Below are positions 43,320-61,260 of a stretch of DNA of 64,000 nt, one piece after another. This stretch comes from Acidobacteriota bacterium. Lineage in GTDB: Bacteria; Acidobacteriota; Vicinamibacteria; Vicinamibacterales; UBA2999. Each line of letters starts with the position of its first letter. Within the stretch, counting starts at the first letter, position 1. The position numbers and the translations under genes are program-made. Below the pieces are notes generated by a model. The model was not told the origin of the DNA. It saw nothing but the letters and a program-made list of their open reading frames with translations, and searched no databases. Location: assembly GCA_947482665.1 (NCBI GenBank), contig CANKJK010000003.1, positions 62,001 through 126,000 of the forward strand, read 5' to 3'.

Positions 43320-43328
43320 ACGGGCGTG

Positions 43329-44396
43329 ATGCGTGCCCTCTGCTGCTCTGTGCTGGTGCTGCCCCTGCTGGGGAGCGCCTGCACCAACGCGCACAGCCCG
43401 GCCCCGGCCGAGGCGGACCGCACAGAGGCCCCCTCTGCCCCGGCTGTCGAACGCACGCACGAGACGATGGGGACGCTCCTGCGTGTGACGGTCTCGACAG
43501 CGGAGACGGCAGCCGCCGAGCAGGCCTGCCGGGAGGTGTTTGCCGAGTTTGACCGGCTCGACGCCCTGTTGAGCGTGTGGAAGCCGGACAGCGAGGTGCT
43601 TCGGCTGAACGCCGCCGCCGGGAGCCACCCGGTGCCTGTGAGCGCCGAGACTCGGGAGGTGCTCCGCATCGCGCGCCAGGTCAGTGAGTGGACCGGCGGG
43701 GCCTTCGACGTCACCTTTGGGGCTCTTTCCGGTCTCTGGAAGTTCGACGCGCAGGACAAGGACGGCACGGTGCCCGATCCCGCGCGCGTGAAGGCGGCCC
43801 TGGCGCTGGTCGACTACCGGGCGCTCACCATCGACGATGGCGCGGGCACGGCCTTCCTTGCCCGCGCGGGCATGCGAGTGCACCTGGGCGGCATCGGCAA
43901 GGGCTATGCGGTGGACCGTGCCGTCGCCATCCTCAAGAGCCACGGCCTCAGGGACTTCATCATTCAGGCCGGCGGCGATCTCTACGTCGGTGGCATGAAG
44001 GACGGCCGGCCATGGCGGCTCGGCATCCGCGATCCTCGCGGGCCGGTTGAGCGCAGTTTCGCCAAGGTGGAACTGACCGACGGCACATTCAGCACGTCAG
44101 GCGACTACGAACGCTTCTTTCTGAAGGACGGCCGGCGGTATCACCACATCATCGACCTCACGACCGGCGAGCCCGCGCGCCTCTCGCGGAGCGTGACGCT
44201 CGTGACGAACAAGGCGGTCATCGCCGATGCGCTCGCCAAAGGGGTCTTCATCCTCGGGCCGGTGCGCGGCCTCGCGCTCGTGGAGCGGATTCCGGATGTG
44301 GAAGCCGTGATCGTGGGTGCCGGCAACGAGGTCGTCGTGTCGTCGGGCCTGAAGGGCAGGGTCACGATGCTGGCGCGCCCGACCGACGCGCCCTAG
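43329..44396 (+). CDS. apbE: FAD:protein FMN transferase ApbE
   Basis: This 355-residue lipoprotein (lipobox LLGSAC, Cys18) transfers FMN from FAD to a threonine in exported flavoproteins. Family landmarks are the HETMGT start of the fold, FDVTFGALSGLW, the nucleotide-binding HLGGIGKGYAVDRAV, QAGGDLYVGG, and the metal-binding region FSTSGDYERFF with HHIIDLTTGEPA. The FMN-binding proteins encoded at 46495-47590 carry the threonine motif it would modify. A GTG directly precedes the ATG (43326). Its stop overlaps the convergent DUF3303 gene by 4 nt. Confidence 0.92.
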   Translation: MRALCCSVLVLPLLGSACTNAHSPAPAEADRTEAPSAPAVERTHETMGTLLRVTVSTAETAAAEQACREVFAEFDRLDALLSVWKPDSEVLRLNAAAGSHPVPVSAETREVLRIARQVSEWTGGAFDVTFGALSGLWKFDAQDKDGTVPDPARVKAALALVDYRALTIDDGAGTAFLARAGMRVHLGGIGKGYAVDRAVAILKSHGLRDFIIQAGGDLYVGGMKDGRPWRLGIRDPRGPVERSFAKVELTDGTFSTSGDYERFFLKDGRRYHHIIDLTTGEPARLSRSVTLVTNKAVIADALAKGVFILGPVRGLALVERIPDVEAVIVGAGNEVVVSSGLKGRVTMLARPTDAP

Positions 44397-44662
44397 GGCG
44401 ACGGTACTCGCGCGGCCGCCTCCGGTGAGGTGATGACCGGGATCACTTCGAACTCCACGAGGTCACTCCAGGCTGCCATCCACTCATCAAGGAGCGCACG
44501 GCTCGGACTCTCCATGACCTGGTAACAGCGCGTGAGATCAGCCGTCACCCAGCTGTTGACGTAGTTCACGCCGTCCGGTGCGAGGCGGCCACGCGTGCGG
44601 AACCGCGCGTAGACCGGTTCAGCGTTCCCGCCGCGGAAGGACTCGATCACCATGAAGAGCAT
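44393..44662 (-). CDS. DUF3303 family protein
   Basis: The 89-residue protein starts MLFMVIESF and contains YVNSWVTADLTRCYQVME, which resembles DUF3303, a small ferredoxin-like-fold family of unknown function. No signal or membrane segment is present. It lies 46 nt downstream of the DinB-like gene on the same strand. A GAGG sequence precedes the start. Confidence 0.7.
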   Translation of the reverse strand: MLFMVIESFRGGNAEPVYARFRTRGRLAPDGVNYVNSWVTADLTRCYQVMESPSRALLDEWMAAWSDLVEFEVIPVITSPEAAARVPSP

Positions 44663-44708
44663 GTGAACCTCGACAGCGACGTAACGGCCCGTGAGTCGGC
44701 GAGGCCGG

Positions 44709-45236
44709 TCAGGCGGGCCCGATGATTCGCAGGTAGTTCCGCCATGGGCCGACCGCCTCCGTGTACTGCCGGCCCATCACGCGCGCGACCTGAACCACGT
44801 GGTCAAGGTCGTGGGCGACCCACGTCGCCAGATGCTGGGCAAGCGTGACGCGCCCGAACTCGGGATGCCGGCCCGGGCGATCCAGATCCGCCGCCGTCAG
44901 GTTCAACGCTTCGAGGCGGCGCAGGCTCTCGACCCGCAGCTCAGCGAAGGTATCGAGCAAGGCCGGGAGACCCTGACCGCTGGACGCTTCGAGCTGCGCG
45001 AAGCGATCAAAGACAGGAAAAGGTATCGCCTCCCCATGCCGCAGGAGGTGTTCGGCGCGAGGCATCCAGTCCGTTCGCTCGCCATGAATGAGGTGGCCGA
45101 CCACGTCGTACGGACTCCAGGTATCCGGCCCTTCATTGCGCGAGACCCAGTCAGAGGGCAGATTCCGGAGCAGCGCATCCAGGACAGCCGGAGTGCGCGT
45201 CAGGACTGGAAGCGCCGTGCGGAGTTCGAAATCCAT
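44709..45236 (-). CDS. DinB-family putative metal-dependent protein
   Basis: This 175-residue four-helix-bundle protein has the three histidines of the DinB/YfiT metal site, in VGHLIHGE and VAHDLDHVVQ. Relatives include thiol transferases (mycothiol or bacillithiol dependent), but no specific activity can be assigned. The start at 45236 was chosen because the longer frame (to 45503) is Arg/Pro-rich and overlaps the Fe-S gene end. TACCCT ends 10 nt before this ATG. Confidence 0.8.
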   Translation of the reverse strand: MDFELRTALPVLTRTPAVLDALLRNLPSDWVSRNEGPDTWSPYDVVGHLIHGERTDWMPRAEHLLRHGEAIPFPVFDRFAQLEASSGQGLPALLDTFAELRVESLRRLEALNLTAADLDRPGRHPEFGRVTLAQHLATWVAHDLDHVVQVARVMGRQYTEAVGPWRNYLRIIGPA

Positions 45237-45379
45237 GTTGGCCCACAGGGTACTTCGCCGCGGGGTCGACGCATGCCCTCGACATGGTGGGCTCGCGCTC
45301 GCTGGAGCGCCCTCGGGGCCTCGGGCTGGCGAGGGCTCCCGCCAGGCCTGACGGCTCGGCCAGGGCGGCCGTGCCGCGC

Positions 45380-46495
45380 TCAGCTCTGGGCGCGGGCCTG
45401 TGCGGCTGCGGTGCGGGCGGCCGCGCGCGCGAGGAGGACGTCCTTGCGCTCGATCACGATCCAGTGGACGCACTTCTTCGTGTCGTCGTAGATCCGCTCG
45501 CAATCATCGCAGCGGACGCACTCGCTTCGAATGATGCGGGGCCCCTGGATGGCGCCCCACTCGCAGGCGCGCTCGCAGATCGTGCACGACTTGCACTCGG
45601 ACCAACGCTTGATCCGGAAGATCGTCGTGATGCTGGAGATGATGCCGAGAAAGGTGCCCACCGGGCAGATGAACCGGCAGTAGAGATTCCGGACGACGAT
45701 GGAGGCCAGAAGGAGGGCGGCCAGCATGCCCCAGAGGAGCCACGCACCCGGGACGGCGGTAAACGCCTCGAAGTTCGCGAGCGCGCCGAACATCCAGAAG
45801 GGCTCGACATACCGGGAGACCAGAATGTTGTGCGTGGTCAGGTAGTATCCGATGACAAACACAAGCAGCGCGTACTTAAAGTAGTAGGCGTTCTGCTCCA
45901 CCTTCACCGGGATCTTGAGCTGCCACTTCTTCGGCACGAACCGGTCCATCAACTGCGTCAGGGCGCCGAAGGCGCAGAGGCGGCCACAGTAGAGCCGGCC
46001 CCAGATGACGGTCGTGCCGAGCGTCGCGGCCCAGAACATGTAGGTGAAGATCGCGTTGGAGAAGATCGGCAGGTTCATCGTGATGAGCCCGAAGATGTTC
46101 ACCACGGAGTAGAGCTGGCTGCGCAGGAAGCCCAGGAACACGAGCGTGTAGACGAGCGTGGCGATCTTCAGCGCGTCGCTTTTCTTGAAGAAGCTGATGA
46201 GGCACAGGACCAGCAGGCCCGTGAAGGCCGCGATGTCCGGAAGCTGGGGGCGGACGATTTCGCCCAGCGTCTGTTCGCGGGCGGTCTTCTCTTCGTCCTC
46301 GTCGTCAAAATTCCAGCCGTTGTCGTCGTCCGCCTTGCTCCCGGCGGCGGCACCGGCGGCAGGCGCGGGAGCGGCCTTCGGGGCCGGAACGCCGGTGGCC
46401 GGGCGTGGAGCCTCCTGCGCCTGGGCGATCCCGGTGAGGCCCAGGGTCAGCACCCCGGCATACAGCGCCGCCAGGACGCGGAGGCGAAGGCGCAT
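45380..46495 (-). CDS. NosR/NapH-like membrane protein with two 4Fe-4S clusters
   Basis: The 371-residue protein has a signal sequence, then an Ala/Pro-rich and acidic linker (residues ~30-75), about six transmembrane helices, and two NosR/NapH-type CxxxC motifs (YCGRLCAFG and YCRFICPVG). At the cytoplasmic end are two ferredoxin-like sites: CKSCTICERAC (CX2CX2CX3C) and CVRCDDC with a further Cys nine residues on. It should carry electrons across the membrane to periplasmic flavin domains. Together with the two upstream FMN-binding genes it looks like a NosR-type protein divided into separate polypeptides. ATG 46495 shares a base with the preceding stop. Confidence 0.82.
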   Translation of the reverse strand: MRLRLRVLAALYAGVLTLGLTGIAQAQEAPRPATGVPAPKAAPAPAAGAAAGSKADDDNGWNFDDEDEEKTAREQTLGEIVRPQLPDIAAFTGLLVLCLISFFKKSDALKIATLVYTLVFLGFLRSQLYSVVNIFGLITMNLPIFSNAIFTYMFWAATLGTTVIWGRLYCGRLCAFGALTQLMDRFVPKKWQLKIPVKVEQNAYYFKYALLVFVIGYYLTTHNILVSRYVEPFWMFGALANFEAFTAVPGAWLLWGMLAALLLASIVVRNLYCRFICPVGTFLGIISSITTIFRIKRWSECKSCTICERACEWGAIQGPRIIRSECVRCDDCERIYDDTKKCVHWIVIERKDVLLARAAARTAAAQARAQS

Positions 46496-47052
46496 CACTT
46501 TTCAGGGGCCGGCAGATACTGCCGCGCCATGCGGCGCGACGCATTCTTGATGGCGCGCGCGGCGCTGGTCACGGTGATCGTCGCGCGTGAGATGGCGTCA
46601 ACATCCGCGCCGACTCTAAAGCTGTCGCGGATACTCTTGCCGCGGAACTGGGAGACAAAGCCGGGCGTTTCCACGGAGATGTTGCCGTACGGCTCGTGGT
46701 GCTCGGCGACCACGAGACCGGTGAGCACGCCCTTCATGTCCATGCCGACCAGCATCTTGATCGGACCGTCATACCCGCGCTCCAGCGGCTCGAGTTCGGT
46801 GGTCCAGTACACATAGCCGATGGGCGTCTGCTTGCCAGCGGCGTCAGTCCCGTAGGCCACGAAATGGGGTGGGTCGCCCTGCTTGGGTGAGAAGCTCTGC
46901 GCACCGGGAAACGCCCGAGCCATCTGCTCAGGCAGCTTCGAAGCTTTGCTGGCAGGCGTGGGATTCACGCCGCCTGGCGCAGGCGTCTGCGCAGTGAGCA
47001 CACCCAGTCCAAGCACGCAGGCACAAAGCACGAGCGCTGGTCGGATCGACAT
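46495..47052 (-). CDS. Periplasmic FMN-binding protein (NqrC/RnfG-type domain), copy 1
   Basis: This 185-residue exported protein has a signal peptide ending near LTAQ. The FMN-binding domain has the block TTELEPLERGYDGP and the flavinylation motif DAISRAT, a variant of D-x-x-S/T-G-A-T in which Thr158 is the FMN acceptor and Gly is replaced by Arg. ApbE encoded 2 kb away is the likely modifying enzyme. It lies between a paralogue (4 nt upstream) and the Fe-S membrane protein, and probably relays electrons on the periplasmic side. Confidence 0.82.
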   Translation of the reverse strand: MSIRPALVLCACVLGLGVLTAQTPAPGGVNPTPASKASKLPEQMARAFPGAQSFSPKQGDPPHFVAYGTDAAGKQTPIGYVYWTTELEPLERGYDGPIKMLVGMDMKGVLTGLVVAEHHEPYGNISVETPGFVSQFRGKSIRDSFRVGADVDAISRATITVTSAARAIKNASRRMARQYLPAPEK

Positions 47053-47056
47053 GGTC

Positions 47057-47590
47057 TTACTTCGCGTCTTCCGGCTTGAACATCTGGATGGCAACGTGAC
47101 GGGCGCTCTTCCTCACGGCCCGGGTGGCATGGGTGATCGTGATGGTGGCGGTCGCCACCACATCCAGGTCTTCGCCGGGCTTGAAGGGATCCTTGACGCT
47201 CTTGCCCTTGAACTGTTGGGCGAAGCGCGGCGTGTCGACCGAGAACTTCCCGAAGGGTTCGTTGTGCTGCACCACGACGATGCCCGCGATGACGCCCTTC
47301 GTGTCGAGGCCCACGAGCATCTTGACGGGGCCGTCGTAGCCACGTTCCAGGGGCTCAAGTTCCGTGGTGTAAAAGGCCACGCCAAGCAGCTGCGGCTGGC
47401 CTTTGGCGTCGGTGATGAAGGCCTTGAAGTGCGGCAGCGGCAGCGCTTCCTTGGCCGAAAACGACGTGGCGGTTGGAAACAGGCTCTTCAGGTGCGCCTG
47501 GACAAGCTCCGCCTTTCCCTGCTGGGCAAGGAGGAGCGCCGAACTGCACAGGGCGAGCACGAGGGTGAAAAGCGAGGGTCGTCTGGACAC
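47057..47590 (-). CDS. Periplasmic FMN-binding protein, copy 2
   Basis: The 177-residue tandem paralogue of the next gene shares TTELEPLERGYDGP and the same domain layout. The signal peptide is MSRRPSLFTLVLALCSSALLLAQ. Its flavinylation motif is DVVATAT: the acceptor threonine (Thr149) is kept, but the Ser/Thr three residues before it is Ala and the Gly is Thr, so modification may be weaker or altered. GTG start; a TACAAT -10 lies about 40 nt upstream. Confidence 0.78.
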   Translation of the reverse strand: MSRRPSLFTLVLALCSSALLLAQQGKAELVQAHLKSLFPTATSFSAKEALPLPHFKAFITDAKGQPQLLGVAFYTTELEPLERGYDGPVKMLVGLDTKGVIAGIVVVQHNEPFGKFSVDTPRFAQQFKGKSVKDPFKPGEDLDVVATATITITHATRAVRKSARHVAIQMFKPEDAK

Positions 47591-47640: not shown

Positions 47641-48105
47641 ATGCGCACTGTGACTCTGGCTCTTGTTGTCGTGGCCGCCCTGGGCCTCTCCCGCTCGGCC
47701 GCCGCTCAGGATGGTGGCCTGACGCTGTCCACCGCCACGGAGATTTCGTGCACCTTCCCCGTGATGTCCACTGGCACCTGGTCGAAGGAGGGCGAGGTCA
47801 CCAACGAGGTGAAGAAGTCCGAGTTCACTCTGGTTTACCAAGCCATCGATACCCAGGACGGCAGTGCTCAGGTAAAGGGCATGTCCGGCAACTTCTACAT
47901 CACAGTGCGAATCGTCGGCGGACACCTCCATCTGCTGACGACGGACTCGGGCGGTCCCGTCTACATGACGACCGTCTTCAATAGCCCAGCCCACAAGGGC
48001 AAGTACAAGGCAGCCCACTCGCGCCATGAATTCACGCCGGTCCAGCTCCCCGGCTTCACGTCGCGGCCCGAGCAGTACGTCGGAGAGTGTGAACTGGTGA
48101 AGTAG
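47641..48105 (+). CDS. Uncharacterised secreted protein
   Basis: I do not recognise a family. The 154-residue protein has a clear Sec signal (MRTVTLALVVVAALGLSRSAAAQ). The mature part is beta-rich with two cysteines, one in ISCTFPV near the N-terminus and one at the C-terminus (GECELVK), which could form a disulfide. It diverges from the FMN-binding genes and shares their promoter, so a linked expression pattern is likely; function unknown. Confidence 0.65.
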   Translation: MRTVTLALVVVAALGLSRSAAAQDGGLTLSTATEISCTFPVMSTGTWSKEGEVTNEVKKSEFTLVYQAIDTQDGSAQVKGMSGNFYITVRIVGGHLHLLTTDSGGPVYMTTVFNSPAHKGKYKAAHSRHEFTPVQLPGFTSRPEQYVGECELVK

Positions 48106-48408: not shown

Positions 48409-48729
48409 TCAGTGCTGGGTAATCATCGACCCCTTCTGACCGTTTGGCTGGATGCCGCGGGTCAGATAGTCGGTCATCGTCAAGCCAAACAGGATCAGCA
48501 GGAAGAAGAATCCCGTCGCCACGATGAGCTTCGTGAGGCGGCTGCTGTGGATGACGTGCATGAAGAACAGGATCACCAGGGTGGCCTTGGTGATCGCGAT
48601 GGCCAGTGCCACCGGGAAATTAAGGTGGCCCAGATCAACAAAGGCCACACCGACCGTCAGCGCCGTGAAGAACATCAGGGCGCCGAAGATCGTGAAATAC
48701 ATGCTCTTGGGCGAAACGTGTCCGGACAT
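48409..48729 (-). CDS. ctaF: Cytochrome c oxidase subunit IV (caa3 oxidase)
   Basis: The 106-residue protein has three transmembrane helices typical of small bacterial subunit IV: TIFGALMFFTALTVGVAF, a second helix containing ITKATLVILFFMHV, and LIVATGFFFLLILFGLT. It is the last gene of the minus-strand operon, followed by a hairpin terminator. It likely stabilises subunits I and III. Confidence 0.85.
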   Translation of the reverse strand: MSGHVSPKSMYFTIFGALMFFTALTVGVAFVDLGHLNFPVALAIAITKATLVILFFMHVIHSSRLTKLIVATGFFFLLILFGLTMTDYLTRGIQPNGQKGSMITQH

Positions 48730-48747
48730 ATCAGTCGCCTCGCCTGT

Positions 48748-49443
48748 CTATCCGACGTGGTGGACGCGGTCCACCAGATAGAGCAAGGGGAAGAGGAAGA
48801 TCCACACGATGTCGACGAAGTGCCAGTAGAGTCCGGCCATTTCGACGTGTGAGTAGTACTCCGGCGAGAAGCGCCCCTTGTGGGCCATGCCGGCGATCCA
48901 CGCCAGGATGCCGAACCCGATCAGCATGTGCAGTGCGTGCAGGCCGGTCATCATGAAGTAGAGCGAGAGGAAGATCTGGATCTGGTCGGCATTCGGGCCG
49001 TGGAACACGAAGTCGGCGCCAGGGATATGGTGCATTTCGAACTTGTGGTAATACTCGAAACCCTTGATGACGACGAACACCAGTCCGAGTACCAAGGTCA
49101 GGAGCAGCCAGTTTCGTGTGGCCTTGTTCTGACCGAGCTGCGCGCAGCGAACGGCGAAGGCCATCGTCAGCGAGCTGCCAATCAGGACGACGGTATTGAT
49201 GCCGCCGAGCATGACGTCGAGTTCCTGGCTACCCTCGGCCCACGCGGCTGGATACCAGACGCGGTAGAGCAGATAGGCCATGAACAGGCCGCCGAAGAAC
49301 ATGACTTCCTGCGCCAGGAACACCCACATCCCGAGGGTGACGCTCTCCTTCTGCTGCACCATCGTTTCGAACTGGTGCTGCTGCGCCGGGTGGTGATGAT
49401 GGCCGCCGTGTGCGGCGGTCGCGTGGGCGAGAGACTCAGCCAA
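48748..49443 (-). CDS. ctaE: Cytochrome c oxidase subunit III (caa3 oxidase)
   Basis: The 231-residue membrane protein opens with a His-rich soluble tail ([12 protein letters not shown]). Five helices follow, with [31 protein letters not shown] and [21 protein letters not shown]. Its start overlaps the ctaD stop by 8 nt. Confidence 0.92.
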
Positions 49444-51049
49444 CGTGCGCCCCCTGTCGTGCGTAGTCGTACGGTTCTTCGGTGACGATCGGCGTCTCCG
49501 TGAAGTTTTCCGTCAGCGGCGGCGACTGCGTCTTCCACTCGAGTCCGGTCGCCCCCCACGGATTATTGCCAGCAACCTTGCCGTACTTGAGCGACCAGAG
49601 GAGATAGATCAGCGGAATCGAGTAGCCGACGGCGAGGATGGTGGCTCCGGCCGACGACAACACATTCAGGACCTGAAACTCCGGCGGGTAGGTGTGGTAC
49701 CGCCGCGGCATGCCCATGTAACCCAGGATGAACTGGGGGAAGAATGTCAGGTTGAAGCCCACGAACACGGCGAGGGCCGAGAACTTGGCCCACGCTTCCG
49801 GATACATCCGGCCCGTGATCTTCGGCCAGTAGAAGTGAATGCCGGCGAGGTAGCCCATGATGGCGCCACCGACCATGATGTAGTGGAAGTGCGCCACCAC
49901 GAAGTAGGTATCGTGGATGTGGATGTCGGTGCCGAGGGACGCGAGGAACAGCCCCGTGAGACCGCCGATTGTGAACAGGCCCAGGAAGCCGAAGACGAAG
50001 ATCATCGGCGAGGCCAGCCAGATGGCGCCCTTATACATCGTCGCCGCCCAGTTGAAGGTCTTCACCGCGGAGGGAATGGCGACCGCGAAGCTCAGGAACG
50101 AGAAGACCATCGCCGCGTAGGGCGAGATGCCAGCGACAAACATGTGGTGCGCCCACACAAGGAAGCCGAAGACGGCAATCGCGAGACTCGAGAACGCGAC
50201 GAACGAGTAGCCAAAGATGGGCTTGCGGGAGAAGCAGGCCACCAACTCGCTGATGACGCCCATGGCCGGCAGAATCATGATGTAGACGGCCGGGTGCGAG
50301 TAGAACCAGAACAGGTGCTGGAAGAGGACCGGGTCGCCGCCAAGGGCCGGGTTGAAGATGCCGATCCCGAACGCCCGCTCAGCCGCCAGCATCAGGACCG
50401 TAATGGCCACGACGGGGGTGCCCAGGATCTGGATCAGGCTGGTCGCGTAGTGTGCCCACACAAACAGCGGCAGGCGGAACCAGGTCAGGCCCGGCGCGCG
50501 CATCCGGTGAATGGTGACGATGAAGTTCAGTCCAGTGAGAATGGACGAGAAGCCCGTGATGAAGATGCCGATGCCTGTCGGCAGGACGTTGGTATTCGAC
50601 GCGCTCGTGCTGTACGGCGTGTAGAAGGTCCACCCGGTGTCGACACCACCCACGACGATGGCGTAGAGCGTGAAGCTGCCGCCGATGATGTAGATGTACC
50701 AGCTCAGCAGGTTGATGCGGGGAAACGCGAGGTCCTTCGCCCCGATCATGATCGGGATCAGGAAGTTGCCCAGAATCGCCGGAATCGATGGGATCAGAAA
50801 GAAGAAGATCATCACGATGCCGTGCATCGTGAACATCTTGTTGTAGGTGTCGGCCGCCAGCAGGTCACCGGCTGGCGTGGTCAGTTCAAGCCGGATCAAT
50901 CCAGCGAACATGCCACCAAGGCCGAAGAACACCGTCACGCTGATGAGGTACAGCAGCGCGATGCGCTTGTGGTCCTTCGTCAGGAGCCACGAGCGGATGC
51001 CGTGGGTGGCGTTGAGATAATTGAGTTCTGGATACGCTGGCGTTGTCAT
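49436..51049 (-). CDS. ctaD: Cytochrome c oxidase subunit I (caa3 oxidase)
   Basis: This 537-residue catalytic subunit reduces O2 at the heme a3-CuB site and pumps protons. It has twelve helices with [10 protein letters not shown] (heme a ligand), [16 protein letters not shown] (CuB His and Tyr), VWAHHMF (CuB) and [10 protein letters not shown] (hemes a and a3). The CuB loop reads SHPAVY, lacking the Glu of HPEVY seen in the other oxidase in this window, which suggests an A2-type D-channel. It overlaps ctaC by 4 nt. Confidence 0.93.
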
Positions 51050-51993
51050 GGCTCTCGCGTCGCGGGCTTACGCATGGATTTCACGTACTCAAGGAGAGCC
51101 ATCACGCCCTCCTCGTTAACCAGGCCCTGGAAGGTGGGCATCTGGGGCTGATAACCGGCCACGAGCTTCGCCTGAGGCGTCAGGATGGACTCGCGAATGT
51201 AGTTTTCGTCGGCGAGGATGACGCTGCCGGTTGAGAGTGTGACCTGCGAGCCGAAGACCCCATGGAGAGTCGGCCCGCGGCCACTGCCCTCCGGGACGTG
51301 GCATGAAATGCACGCCAGATCCTGGAAGAGCTTCTGACCCTTGGTGGCCAGTGAGCCTTCGCTCGTGCCGCCAGACAGCCACTGCTCGTATGCGTGCGGC
51401 TCCATCACGATCACGGTGCCGACCATGCCGGAGTGCTTGGTTCCGCAGTACTGGGAACAGAAGAGGTGATATTCACCGGGCTTGGTCGGCGTGAACCAGA
51501 TCGACGTGTACCGCCCCGGGATGGCGTCTGCCTTGACGCGGAAGGCAGGCACGAAGACATCGTGGATGACGTCTTCTGATGAGATGGTCATCTTGACGGC
51601 TCTGCCCACCGGCAGGTGCAGCTCGTTGATTTCGCGCTGCCCGTCGATGTGCTGGAACTTCCACATCCACCGCTTGCCGACGGCGTAGATCTCGAGCCGT
51701 TCATCGGGCGGACGGATGATGCGGAAATACACCGTCGTCGACCACGCGAAGATGAACATCGCGATGACAAACGGAATGACGGTCCACAGTATTTCCAACG
51801 GCACCGAGCCGTGGATGTTGGCGCCCACGTCGTCGGGGTGCTTGCGGCGGTACTTCAGGGCGAAGTATCCAACCGCGAGGGCCACCACGCCGGCGAAGAA
51901 CACCGTGACCGCGATGAGGAAGAAGTACAGGTTGTCGACCTGGGGTGCCAGGGCCGACGCCTGTTCCGGAAAGAGCGGGGGTGCGGAAAACAT
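51046..51993 (-). CDS. ctaC: Cytochrome c oxidase subunit II with fused cytochrome c (caa3)
   Basis: The 315-residue protein has two N-terminal helices, a cupredoxin domain with CuA ligands His144, Cys179, Cys183, His187 and Met190 ([12 protein letters not shown]), and a C-terminal cytochrome c domain with CISCH at 228-232 and a Met ligand near MPTFQG. The fused heme makes this a caa3 oxidase that can accept electrons directly from alternative complex III encoded upstream. Confidence 0.94.
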
Positions 51994-51995
51994 GG

Positions 51996-52850
51996 TTACG
52001 CGTGCGCCACTGCGGAATCTTTCCGCAGCGCCAGCCAGATGAAGCCGCCAAGGATAAGCACGGTCATGCCGCCTCCCAGACGGATAATGTTCATGGGGAT
52101 CGCGCCGTACCGACCGGCCGCGGCGTCGTAGTGATAGCAGTAGAGCAGGAGTTGGTCGACGGCGCTGCCGATGGTTCCGCGCCCGGATTCCACCAGCGCC
52201 AGGCGGAGATCCTTCGGTGAGTATTCGATGCCGTAGAAGTAGCGGGAAAGGCGGCCGTCCGGGGTGGCGACCAGCACGCCGCTCACGTGTGCGAACTGCT
52301 GAGTCCGTTCATCCCACTGATAGGTGAACCCGGCCGCGCTGGTCACTGCCTTGATGTTGGCTTCGGTCCCGGTCAGAAAGTGCCAGCCGTCCGCCGTCGC
52401 CGTCTGGTGATAGTCGGCCAGCAGGGCGGACTTCTTGGCCTGCGCCGCCTCAGGAGTATCGCGCGGGTCAAAGCTCAGGAAGACGATGTCGAAGTCGCGT
52501 CCGACCACAAACGGCAGCGGCTTGAGTGAGCTGGCCGTGCCATTCAGCACCTGCGTGCAGAGCATCGGGCACTGGAAATACACAAACGCCAGAAGCACGG
52601 GCTTCTTTGAGAAGTAGCTCCCAAGCGTAACGTCGCGCCCGTATTCGTCCTTGAAGGGTGTGTCGAGCGGCAGCTGCGTGTTCAGCCGCTGTTGGAAGGA
52701 CACTCCCTCCAGCTGCTTCGGCACCACGGTCGAGGCCAGGCCTGGCGCCTCCATTGACCCAGGCAAGCCCGGGGACTGCTGGGCGTACGCCGACGAAGCG
52801 AGCGTCGTCGCCGTCAGCGCAGCCAGGAAGAGAGGGGAAAGGCGGGGCAT
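51996..52850 (-). CDS. SCO1/SenC-type copper chaperone
   Basis: This 284-residue exported thioredoxin-fold protein inserts copper into CuA. The copper ligands are Cys94 and Cys98 (CPMLC) and His188 (FAHVSGV). A signal peptide precedes the domain and a C-terminal helix (GGGMTVLILGGFIWLALR) anchors it. ATG 52850 is used; a GTG at 52853 directly precedes it. It sits just before ctaC, its client. Confidence 0.9.
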   Translation of the reverse strand: MPRLSPLFLAALTATTLASSAYAQQSPGLPGSMEAPGLASTVVPKQLEGVSFQQRLNTQLPLDTPFKDEYGRDVTLGSYFSKKPVLLAFVYFQCPMLCTQVLNGTASSLKPLPFVVGRDFDIVFLSFDPRDTPEAAQAKKSALLADYHQTATADGWHFLTGTEANIKAVTSAAGFTYQWDERTQQFAHVSGVLVATPDGRLSRYFYGIEYSPKDLRLALVESGRGTIGSAVDQLLLYCYHYDAAAGRYGAIPMNIIRLGGGMTVLILGGFIWLALRKDSAVAHA

Positions 52851-52852
52851 CA

Positions 52853-53365
52853 CTATTGCCTCCGCCGCTCCGTCAGGCGCCCCGCGCTCGCATTTGACAG
52901 CGTCGCGTTGGCGTTCTCGAAGGGGACCATGCCGGGTGCCGTGGAGTCCGGGCGCGAACGAAGCCCTTTGGTCGCCAGGCGGATCGCCTCCTCAATTGGG
53001 ATGTGCACGGTGCCGGCGGCCTTGTCCACCCAGCCGTAGCTGGCGAGGAGCGCGTTTTCTTCAGCGCGGACGGCTACGAGATCTTTTGTCGGGCTCGTCT
53101 GGAGGCGCGGTTCTGGCGGGAGCCGCTGCGCGTTGGTTTCCGCGAGCGGATACCGCCGCGCCGACGTCTCTTCGTTCTGGTGCTGAAGGAACGAGAACAT
53201 GCCGCCCATCAGCAGGTGCGTCACGATCACCAGCGCTGTGAGCCACGCCAGGAACTTGATAATGGCGCCGGTGTGGGCGTCGGTATGTTCGTATCCGGAG
53301 CTTGCAGGTCCGGGGAGATAGTCGTCGTCCGGAGTCGTGTGCGCGTGGGCGTGATGGTCGCTCAT
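52853..53365 (-). CDS. Small single-helix protein of the alternative complex III operon
   Basis: The 170-residue protein begins His/Asp-rich (MSDHHAHAHTTPDDDY), has one transmembrane helix (residues ~35-58, IIKFLAWLTALVIVTHLLMGG), and then a soluble part with PPEPRLQTSPTKDLVAVRAEE. A similar small single-helix gene often lies after actF in act operons and may be an accessory subunit or assembly factor. It shares a base with the actF stop, and its stop abuts the SCO gene. Confidence 0.75.
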   Translation of the reverse strand: MSDHHAHAHTTPDDDYLPGPASSGYEHTDAHTGAIIKFLAWLTALVIVTHLLMGGMFSFLQHQNEETSARRYPLAETNAQRLPPEPRLQTSPTKDLVAVRAEENALLASYGWVDKAAGTVHIPIEEAIRLATKGLRSRPDSTAPGMVPFENANATLSNASAGRLTERRRQ

Positions 53366-54582
53366 CAGTGCCCTCCCGTGGCGGCAATCGCCTTGGCCAG
53401 ATCAGGTTCCCGAAGCGGCAGCAGTGGCCGGCTGCCAAGCTGACGCAGGAAATACGCCACCCAGATGCCCCCGATGGCGAGTGGAGCCGCAACGTCGAGC
53501 CAGTTGACGAAGGCCGAGGACACGGCGTCTTCGCCCGCATGCAGATTCGCGCCGGCGCTGTTGAACTCCGGTGACACCAGGAACGCGATGTCCACCAGGC
53601 GCATCACGATCACCAGCACCGCGATCGTGATCAGCCGGTTGGCGTTCCGCTTCAGGTCGCGCGACAGCAGCATCGAGAAGGGCAGCACGAAGTGGAGCAG
53701 GAGCAGCCCCAACGCCACATACTGCCAGCCGTTCGATAGGCGGGTGATGTAGTAAGGCACCTCTTCGGCCAGGTTGCCGGAGTAGATGATGAGGAACTGG
53801 GAGAAGTTGAAGTAGGCCCAGAGCATGACGAAGGCGAGCATCAGCTTGCCGAGGTCGTGAAAGTGCACGGGCTTGAAGACGTGGTCCATCGGTGCGCGCC
53901 GCGCCAGTGCGGTCGCGATGACGACGGTGAAGGCCAGCGCGATCAGTCCATGGCCACCCATGAACAGGAACCCCATGATGGTCGAGAACCATTTGGGGTT
54001 GAGCGACATCACCCAATCCACGGCCGCAAACGTGATCGTGAGTCCGTAAATCACCAGACCCGCGCCGCTGAGCCGCTGCATCTTGCGCGCCGCGTTCACG
54101 TCCCCGCCATCCTGCGCCAGCGACCACTTGCTCAGCAGCGTCGAGAGCCCAATCCAGCAGGCGAAGTAGATGACCGCCCGGACCAGGAAGAACGGCGTGT
54201 TGAGGTACGGCGACTTGGCGTGAAGGATGTGGTCGTGCGCAACCAGGGTCTCGTTCGTCCACGGATAGAGCGAGTGCATCCCGGCGGCGATCGGCAGAAA
54301 GAGGATCGCCAGCAGTGGCAGCGTCCGGCTTGAGGCCTCGAAGATCCGGCGGATCACGACGCCCCAGGCGCCTCCGGACAGGTGATGCACCATCAGGAGC
54401 GCCATGGAGCCGAGCGGTATTCCCAGCCACAGGAGATAGCCAATGAGGTAGGCGCGGTAGAACTGTTCGCGGGCAACCGCGAAGCCGATGCCGCACAGCA
54501 CGACGCCGACCACTCCCGCCATCAGGGCGGGGCGGCTGCGGGCAATGAAATCGGCCGGGGCGGCGTAGTTGGTCTGGGTCAT
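53365..54582 (-). CDS. actF: Alternative complex III membrane subunit ActF
   Basis: The 405-residue integral membrane protein has about ten helices and is a NrfD-like homologue of ActC. Segments such as YLLWLGIPLGSMALLMVHHLSGGAWG and AYFNFSQFLIIYSGNLAEE are typical. With ActC it forms the membrane arm that may move protons during quinol oxidation. It lies 3 nt after the actE stop. Confidence 0.9.
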   Translation of the reverse strand: MTQTNYAAPADFIARSRPALMAGVVGVVLCGIGFAVAREQFYRAYLIGYLLWLGIPLGSMALLMVHHLSGGAWGVVIRRIFEASSRTLPLLAILFLPIAAGMHSLYPWTNETLVAHDHILHAKSPYLNTPFFLVRAVIYFACWIGLSTLLSKWSLAQDGGDVNAARKMQRLSGAGLVIYGLTITFAAVDWVMSLNPKWFSTIMGFLFMGGHGLIALAFTVVIATALARRAPMDHVFKPVHFHDLGKLMLAFVMLWAYFNFSQFLIIYSGNLAEEVPYYITRLSNGWQYVALGLLLLHFVLPFSMLLSRDLKRNANRLITIAVLVIVMRLVDIAFLVSPEFNSAGANLHAGEDAVSSAFVNWLDVAAPLAIGGIWVAYFLRQLGSRPLLPLREPDLAKAIAATGGH

Positions 54583-54585
54583 CGT

Positions 54586-55239
54586 CTAGTGCCCCTGCTT
54601 CTCGTGGCCAGCCGCGCCATGCTCAGCATGCTCCCCAGCGCCGTCTTCGGCCGTGGCGGGAGCGTCGAGCGACGCACGCTTCTCGGCGGGAACGTCCGCC
54701 ACCGTGGCGTGCTGGCTGATCTGCAGCGCGCGGAGATAGGCCGCAATGGCCCACCGATCCGGCACCGGAACCTGCGCGGAATAGTCCTGCATCGCGCCGA
54801 AGCCGTTGGTCATGACGTCGAAGAAATAGCCGACTGGCGCAGACCGGAGGCGGTCGCTATGGAACGTCGGCGGCCGCCGGAATCCTCGGCGCACCACCAT
54901 GCCATCTCCACGCCCGGTCCGGCCGTGGCATGGCGAGCAGAACACGTTGAAGCGCTCGTGACCGCGGGCCAGCAGCTCGGGTGTCGCCGCAACGGGAAGC
55001 GCATCGGCGAGCTGACCCCCGATCTTGCCGGTGTAGAGGTGCTCGTCCGTACGGATGGAACCGCGGGCCACGGTGTGGGCCACCGGCACGCGATAGGCGT
55101 GTCCGTCGGTGAAGAACGTCGAGGCTTCGAGTGGCTCGTACCGGGGGTTGTCGTGCATGTCCTGACGGCAGGCGCCGGCGAGAACAGACGAGGCCACCAC
55201 GGCCGAGAGGACGCCGAGGCGATGGAGCTTACCAGGCAA
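54586..55239 (-). CDS. actE: Alternative complex III monoheme cytochrome c lipoprotein ActE
   Basis: The 217-residue lipoprotein (lipobox LAGAC, Cys24) carries one heme c site, CSPCH at residues 101-105, and a Met-rich region (VMTNGFGAMQ) supplying the axial ligand. It is the likely electron exit toward the caa3 oxidase. The C-terminal tail is Ala/Glu/His rich. It overlaps actD by 11 nt. Confidence 0.92.
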   Translation of the reverse strand: MPGKLHRLGVLSAVVASSVLAGACRQDMHDNPRYEPLEASTFFTDGHAYRVPVAHTVARGSIRTDEHLYTGKIGGQLADALPVAATPELLARGHERFNVFCSPCHGRTGRGDGMVVRRGFRRPPTFHSDRLRSAPVGYFFDVMTNGFGAMQDYSAQVPVPDRWAIAAYLRALQISQHATVADVPAEKRASLDAPATAEDGAGEHAEHGAAGHEKQGH

Positions 55240-55780
55240 CTTCGGTGACCTCCTGCGGACCCAGGCCCTTGAGGAACTGCTCAGTGCCCTGCCGATCGAA
55301 TTGCGGGTCGGCCGACTCGATGCAGAGGAAGAAGCGATCCTGGGAAGCCCGGTGAAAACGGGGCGCGTTGAAGACCGGGTGATACGGCTGCGGCAGCCCG
55401 TTCAGCACGATCATGCCGACCACCGCCGAGAGGGCGGCGCCAAGAATCGTCGTCTCGTACGCCACTGGAATGAACGACGGCCAGGTGAACTCGGGCCGGC
55501 CGCCGATATTCATGGGATACGCGATGGTCGATGCCCAATACTCGAGGCCCATGCCCAGCACCGTGCCAGCAATTCCTCCGGCGAGCACCAGACGCGGCAG
55601 GCGGGTCTTGGGGAGCGCCAGCGCCTCGTTGAGTTCCTCGATCGGCATCGGGGAGTAGGCGTCCATGTTCCGGTATCCGGCAATGCGGGCCCGGTTCGCC
55701 GCGGCCACCAACTCGCTCGGATTGACGAATTCCGCCGTCAGTCCGTAGATGGCCGGCGTCGAAGATGTGGATGCGGACAT
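55229..55780 (-). CDS. actD: Alternative complex III subunit ActD (DUF3341)
   Basis: The 183-residue protein has the DUF3341 pattern: an N-terminal cytoplasmic domain (YGLTAEFVNPSELVAAANRARIAGYRNMDAYSPMPI) and two helices around GGIAGTVLGMG and AALSAVVGMIVLNGLP. The C-terminal stretch RFFLCIESADPQFD is conserved in the family. It joins the membrane subunits ActC and ActF. Confidence 0.9.
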   Translation of the reverse strand: MSASTSSTPAIYGLTAEFVNPSELVAAANRARIAGYRNMDAYSPMPIEELNEALALPKTRLPRLVLAGGIAGTVLGMGLEYWASTIAYPMNIGGRPEFTWPSFIPVAYETTILGAALSAVVGMIVLNGLPQPYHPVFNAPRFHRASQDRFFLCIESADPQFDRQGTEQFLKGLGPQEVTEVAW

Positions 55781-60386
<4,606 letters not shown>

Positions 60387-60399
<13 letters not shown>

Positions 60400-61034
60400 G
60401 TGGAGCAGCTCGTGCGTGGGTTCACGTGGTATTCCTTCATCAGCCGCGCGCCGACCACCGCCTGAGACTCAGCAGGCCGGTACCCCATTGTGTAAATCTC
60501 CGAGCGGGGCCTCAGGTACTGGGCGGGATTGCGGTGGCAGTCCAAGCACCATTCCATCTGCAGCGAGTTCTCCTGCAGCATCAGCGGCATCTTGTCGACG
60601 CGGCCATGGCAGGTTTCGCAGCCAACGCCCTTCTTTACGTGGACGCTGTGATTGAAGTACGCGAAGTCGGGGAGGTCATGCACCCGGACCCACCGCAATG
60701 ACCGGTTGTCCCGGAAGCTTGAGCGAACTGGTTCGAGATATGGACTGGTGATCCAGATCTGCGAATGGCAGTTCATGCAGGTCTTGGTCGGGGGGATACC
60801 GGCGAACGTCGACGTTTCTGCCGACGTATGACAGTACCGGCAGTCGAGCCCGATCGTCTGCACATGGTGCTGGTGACTGAACTGGATGGGCTGCTCGCGG
60901 ACGACCCGCTGGTTGTTGACCCACGACCAGCGGTTGGCGGTCGTCAACAGCCCAAGCAGTGACCCGACGACGAGCACCAACCCGACGATGCTGGCCTTCG
61001 CGATGAAGTTCGCCGAACGATTGAAAATCTGCAT
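60387..61034 (-). CDS. actA: Alternative complex III pentaheme cytochrome c ActA
   Basis: The 215-residue protein has one N-terminal membrane helix and five heme c sites: CRYCH 65-69, CMNCH 86-90, CETCH 139-143, CLDCH 163-167 and CSTCH 210-214 at the extreme C-terminus. It is the first gene of the operon. Start at 61034 (MQIFNRSANF); the longer frame would add a leader without a hydrophobic start. Confidence 0.93.
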
Positions 61035-61260
61035 GCAGCCTGTCGCAGCGCTTTCTACGCGCTCCTGATTCTGTTCGAACGCGCGCACCCAGGGAACTTC
61101 AGCGCGCGTCTATCCGTCAGTACCGAAGCCGTGACGGGTGCCATTTGTACCACACAATGTGAAAAAAGGTTCAGAGGCTCTGGAAACCGGCCTGAAATTG
61201 TGGATTTGTGGTTGAGTTGAGGCAGGCGCTACTATTACGCGGCCTTTCTTCACCCACTTC
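61035..61260. promoter_or_regulatory. Divergent control region of the act-cta operon and zinc-ribbon gene
   Basis: This 226-nt gap is AT-richer than its surroundings, with a run of six A and the segment CACACAATGTG near 61152-61162. A plus-strand promoter candidate is TTGTGG (61206-61211), 18 nt, TACTAT (61230-61235), 25 nt before ATG 61261. I could not pick a convincing minus-strand promoter for actA. Confidence 0.4.

Follow-up and report, generated by a model that had tools for sequence, protein, structure and literature searches.

A probable flavinylated NapH/NosR-like transmembrane electron-transfer module of split type in Vicinamibacteria

NapH-like gene clusters were surveyed by Meheust et al. 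2021 (eLife), who counted 2465 of them, 539 with a separate FMN-binding gene (PMC8238504). Models of the electron path in NapH, NosR and PceC (PMC8238504, PMC5928378) underlie the route from quinol through Fe-S sites to FMN that we propose below, and both the flavinylation and the topology of NosR and PceC have been published (PMC12052999, PMC5928378). The published flavinylation motif is D-x-x-[S/T]-G-A-[S/T], and in one protein tested, flavinylation dropped when the glycine was replaced (PMC12052999). Here we analyzed a locus in a 64,000-nucleotide stretch of DNA from an Acidobacteriota bacterium (hereafter the window). Its genes probably encode a transmembrane electron-transfer module that is flavinylated, NapH/NosR-like and of the split type, and the locus fits the published NapH-like class with a separate FMN gene.

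Gene arrangement and domain content of the locus

The sequence itself shows FMN1 first on the minus strand, followed by FMN2 and the membrane Fe-S protein (Table 1). A 4-nt gap separates the stop of FMN1 (47057) from the ATG of FMN2 (47052), and the stop of FMN2 overlaps the ATG of the membrane-protein gene by 1 nt at 46495. In a Pfam scan, ApbE, Fer4_5 (PF12801) and both FMN_bind domains all scored above the curated cut-offs. These matches and the tight packing bear out the first-pass annotation, which had described two tandem exported FMN-binding proteins and a membrane Fe-S protein as an operon with apbE 1 kb away. The apbE gene indeed lies about 1 kb from the operon and matches PF02424 at E 4e-84; it is on the opposite strand in convergent orientation, with a DinB-like gene and a DUF3303 gene in between. 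Promoter and terminator scans of the locus gave nothing usable.

Table 1 Features of the locus in window coordinates
Feature	Position	Strand	Basis
FMN1, probably exported FMN_bind protein, 177 aa	47057..47590	minus	PF04205 E 3.9e-10, above cut-off
FMN2, probably exported FMN_bind protein, 185 aa from ATG 47052	46495..47052	minus	PF04205 E 6.9e-11
Membrane Fe-S protein, NapH-like / NosR C-terminal half	45380..46495	minus	PF12801 E 7.4e-16
ApbE, FAD:protein FMN transferase	43326..44396	plus	PF02424 full length, E 4.4e-84
Exported barrel protein, 154 aa, without Pfam family	47641..48105	plus	AF2 model, co-occurrence

The membrane protein matches PF12801 with 58.3 bits (cut-off 22) and carries the motifs CX3CA, CX3CP, CX2CX2CX3C and CX2CX2CX9C. 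Its best named match is the NosR model, which it covers from position 430 to 677 (E 1.9e-30), with a score of 105.8 bits against a cut-off of 1000. When aligned with NosR and with NirI-like proteins from annotated plasmids, it keeps every one of the 12 cysteines found in the C-terminal half of NosR/NirI, as well as the EPF motif, and shows a family signature, CGRxCAxG, in place of CGWxCPxG. The 12 cysteines are invariant across 30 relatives. The protein has hydrophobic segments and a helical predicted structure, and a search for a known fold returned no PDB match below E 1. The middle region of the NosR model (about 160-430) has no match anywhere in the locus. The earlier reading of a NosR-like conduit in separate polypeptides with ApbE nearby is well supported, though such a conduit is not exceptional. 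Its description as split into three reflects a local duplication, since a single FMN protein beside one membrane protein is the rule in relatives, with few exceptions, and the NosR middle region is missing rather than split off.

On the other side of the locus, at 48409-61088 on the minus strand, the window contains cytochrome oxidase genes, including those of a c-type subunit II and a Sco-like protein, which end just upstream of the module. They are preceded by alternative complex III (ACIII)-like genes, the complex III assignment being made by eye. Among the loci compared, this oxidase operon stands beside the module in the window genome only. We considered a functional link between the module and the ACIII/caa3 operon and rejected it, since the operon was found in no relative's neighbourhood and an oppositely oriented gene lies between the two.

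FMN-binding proteins, their motifs and ApbE

FMN1 and FMN2 are 51% identical and are the only PF04205 proteins of the genome, just as the membrane protein is its only PF12801 protein. Both match the NosR model within positions 11-160 (16-160 for FMN2) and share with NosR the HxEP(Y/F/I) region and the position of the motif. They scored 41.7 and 36.2 bits against the RnfG subfamily model, below its cut-off of 102 and so short of an assignment to RnfG/NqrC. Their N-termini are hydrophobic, as judged by eye, and the signal peptides were likewise called by eye and not with a trained predictor.

The motif is DVVATAT in FMN1 and DAISRAT in FMN2, and the motif alignment confirmed the residue numbers given before: the candidate FMN site is Thr149 in FMN1 and, numbering from ATG 47052, Thr158 in FMN2. 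FMN2 departs from the published consensus once, with R for G, and FMN1 twice, with A for S/T and T for G. As far as can be judged from the motifs, the departures in both proteins count against the module reading. In the motif alignment of the split-module family, the glycine is often replaced by R, T or S and the acceptor Thr is sometimes Ser; a NirI-like protein adjoining an ApbE also has no motif glycine (DGVTKAT). Covalent flavinylation of FMN1 and FMN2 by ApbE is nevertheless likely, because ApbE is commonly encoded nearby: in 27 of 44 de-duplicated loci of relatives, apbE lies at most 4 kb downstream. The non-glycine motif would also bear on how strict recognition by ApbE is.

The window ApbE is probably a lipoprotein. 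The genome has a second ApbE (L136:9503-11697), which adjoins a DUF3570 protein and a redoxin, a neighbourhood fitting the published DUF3570 flavinylation type; therefore the window ApbE is the likely partner of the FMN proteins.

FMN2 is the positional counterpart of the single FMN gene of the relatives. Two FMN genes were found only in the window and in one relative (G018, locus L101), in which a barrel-protein gene sits between them. FMN1 is on a long branch of the FMN tree; as to the origin of the tandem pair, neither a grouping of FMN1 with the distal copy of L101 (p-AU 0.63) nor one with FMN2 (p-AU 0.42) was rejected. We also looked for fused di-FMN proteins in relatives, but the long FMN ORFs (e.g. 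322 aa) contain one domain only.

Taken as a flavinylated module, the locus would work as follows. A donor in the membrane, most likely quinol, would reduce the membrane Fe-S protein, whose two cytosolic [4Fe-4S] sites and CX3C motifs would relay the electrons to FMN presumably attached by ApbE to the two separately encoded and probably exported FMN domains, and the reduced flavoproteins would then hand the electrons to an extracytosolic acceptor.

Relatives, neighbouring genes and alternative roles

Close relatives of the membrane protein (E < 1e-60) occur in 73 of the 193 Vicinamibacteria genomes searched, so the family is common in this class. A further 64 loci come from named MAGs, mostly of Acidobacteriota, with one alphaproteobacterial group; labels such as 'Bifidobacterium breve' among them are probably wrong. 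Genes were called with our own simple codon model, which makes the counts approximate, and many contigs are short. In 55 of 61 de-duplicated loci, the membrane-protein gene is immediately preceded by an FMN gene, nearly always a single one. Of the co-occurring reductases that the first-pass annotation had proposed to search for, none was consistently linked to the module, and no oxidase either. PQQ dehydrogenase and GMC oxidoreductase were each rejected as a recurrent partner, since both recur within lineages only. DUF1552 clusters were seen near the module twice (0.59 expected, p 0.12), which is not significant.

The dehydrogenase genes suggest that electrons could run the other way, from a periplasmic PQQ- or GMC-type dehydrogenase to FMN, on to the Fe-S protein and into the quinone pool. 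In one lineage of marine acidobacteria, a PQQ dehydrogenase is encoded two genes from the module; several alphaproteobacterial loci have GMC oxidoreductase genes at a distance of about five genes, and Meheust et al. reported NapH-like clusters with the ethanol oxidase ExaA (PMC8238504). However, no such dehydrogenase adjoins the module of the window, and most loci with PQQ neighbours belong to a single lineage with 72-98% identity among its membrane proteins, so that inherited synteny may explain them. We regard reverse flow as unlikely.

Less probable still is a role in maturation or thiol redox, in which the module would supply reducing power for maturing or repairing a periplasmic metalloprotein or disulfide and would not serve a terminal reductase. 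Besides electron transfer, NosR is proposed to take part in activating NosZ, and the CX3CP motifs may work like thioredoxin-like disulfides (PMC5928378); in the window, the module adjoins the ACIII/caa3 oxidase operon with its Sco-like copper protein. Against this, the oxidase neighbourhood appears in no relative's locus, and none of the module's conserved neighbours is a redoxin or a metallochaperone.

The earlier reading of the locus had overlooked a recurrent neighbour, the exported barrel protein, which is encoded divergently from FMN1 with about 50 bp in between. No Pfam family matches it. Its AF2 model is an eight-stranded beta barrel (pLDDT 84), for which neither Foldseek (best E 5.5e-3, to NHBA) nor VIA (best Z 8.3, to generic barrels) gave a confident fold, and two cysteines are invariant in the family. 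Across 59 genomes, 14 had both the barrel protein and the module, 1 the barrel protein alone, 15 the module alone and 29 neither (Fisher p 6e-5, without correction for relatedness). The two adjoin in 10 of the 14 genomes having both, and extra copies of the barrel protein occur elsewhere in the same genomes, enriched near DUF1592/DUF1552 clusters (5 of 23 copies within 7 kb of DUF1552 clusters, about 1 expected). The barrel protein is thus a frequent companion of the module and not an obligate part of it. For most NapH-like flavinylated systems the acceptor is not known, and a recurrent exported neighbour would be a concrete candidate partner. Vicinamibacteria might possess a distinct electron-export system made up of the barrel protein, both FMN proteins and the membrane Fe-S protein, with the two different flavoproteins in series and the barrel as acceptor, docking partner or outer-membrane link; this is a doubtful proposal to which we give little credence.

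There is next to no chance that the module acts as NosR for a nitrous-oxide reductase whose gene lies at another place in the genome: its membrane protein does have the NosR model as best named match, but a search of the whole genome (97.5% complete) for the NosZ propeller (nos_propeller) found none, the same search was positive in three relatives (G042, G048 and G057), and a hidden nos system was ruled out on these grounds. In all three, NosZ adjoins a long fused protein, taken as NosR-NosD, in the nos cluster, and the split module is at a separate locus. The absence of a nitrous-oxide reductase gene noted earlier thus holds genome-wide and not for the window alone, and linkage to Nos in the same genome, which had been named as a refuting condition, was not found. 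The long ORFs beside nosZ (1101-1152 aa) are at L131:8538-11843, L132:8529-11834 and L133:2975-6433; the one scanned, that of L131 (G048), is a NosR-NosD fusion. In another genome, G027 (L130:4324-7312), a fused NosR-like protein and an ApbE stand beside DUF1592/DUF1552 cytochrome-type genes, and a NosZ search of that genome found none.

Comparison with known systems

As a probable flavinylated transmembrane electron-transfer module, the locus can be set beside four described types. NirI-like proteins beside ApbE, such as that of L160 on a Pseudosulfitobacter plasmid, have the same cysteines and likewise a non-glycine residue at the motif glycine, but form a single fused 700-residue polypeptide where the proteins here are split. 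RdhC/PceC of organohalide respiration share the FMN domain and a membrane module with CX3C motifs; PceC is fused and has no two C-terminal 4Fe-4S sites, both of which are present here.

NosR has the same type of FMN domain, and its C-terminal half has the same 12 cysteines; its two CX3CP motifs and two C-terminal 4Fe-4S sites all have counterparts in our membrane protein, save for one P to A change: NosR has CGWxCP where the protein here has CGRxCA, so that the first CX3C motif ends in A and not P. NosR combines FMN domain, periplasmic middle and Fe-S membrane domain in one polypeptide, whereas here the FMN and Fe-S domains are encoded by separate genes, with no middle region (about 160-430 of the model) and no NosZ.

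The closest are the NapH-like split systems, in which a PF12801 membrane Fe-S protein, a separate FMN_bind protein (here probably exported) and ApbE likewise share one locus (PMC8238504). The locus differs from them by its tandem pair of FMN proteins where they have one, by an R or T in place of the motif glycine, and by the exported barrel protein as a neighbour. Since it fits the class of 539 clusters, we file it under a known kind. The kind of module is already catalogued; what is new here is the local FMN duplication, which adds a rare second flavin protein, and the recurrent unclassified exported neighbour.
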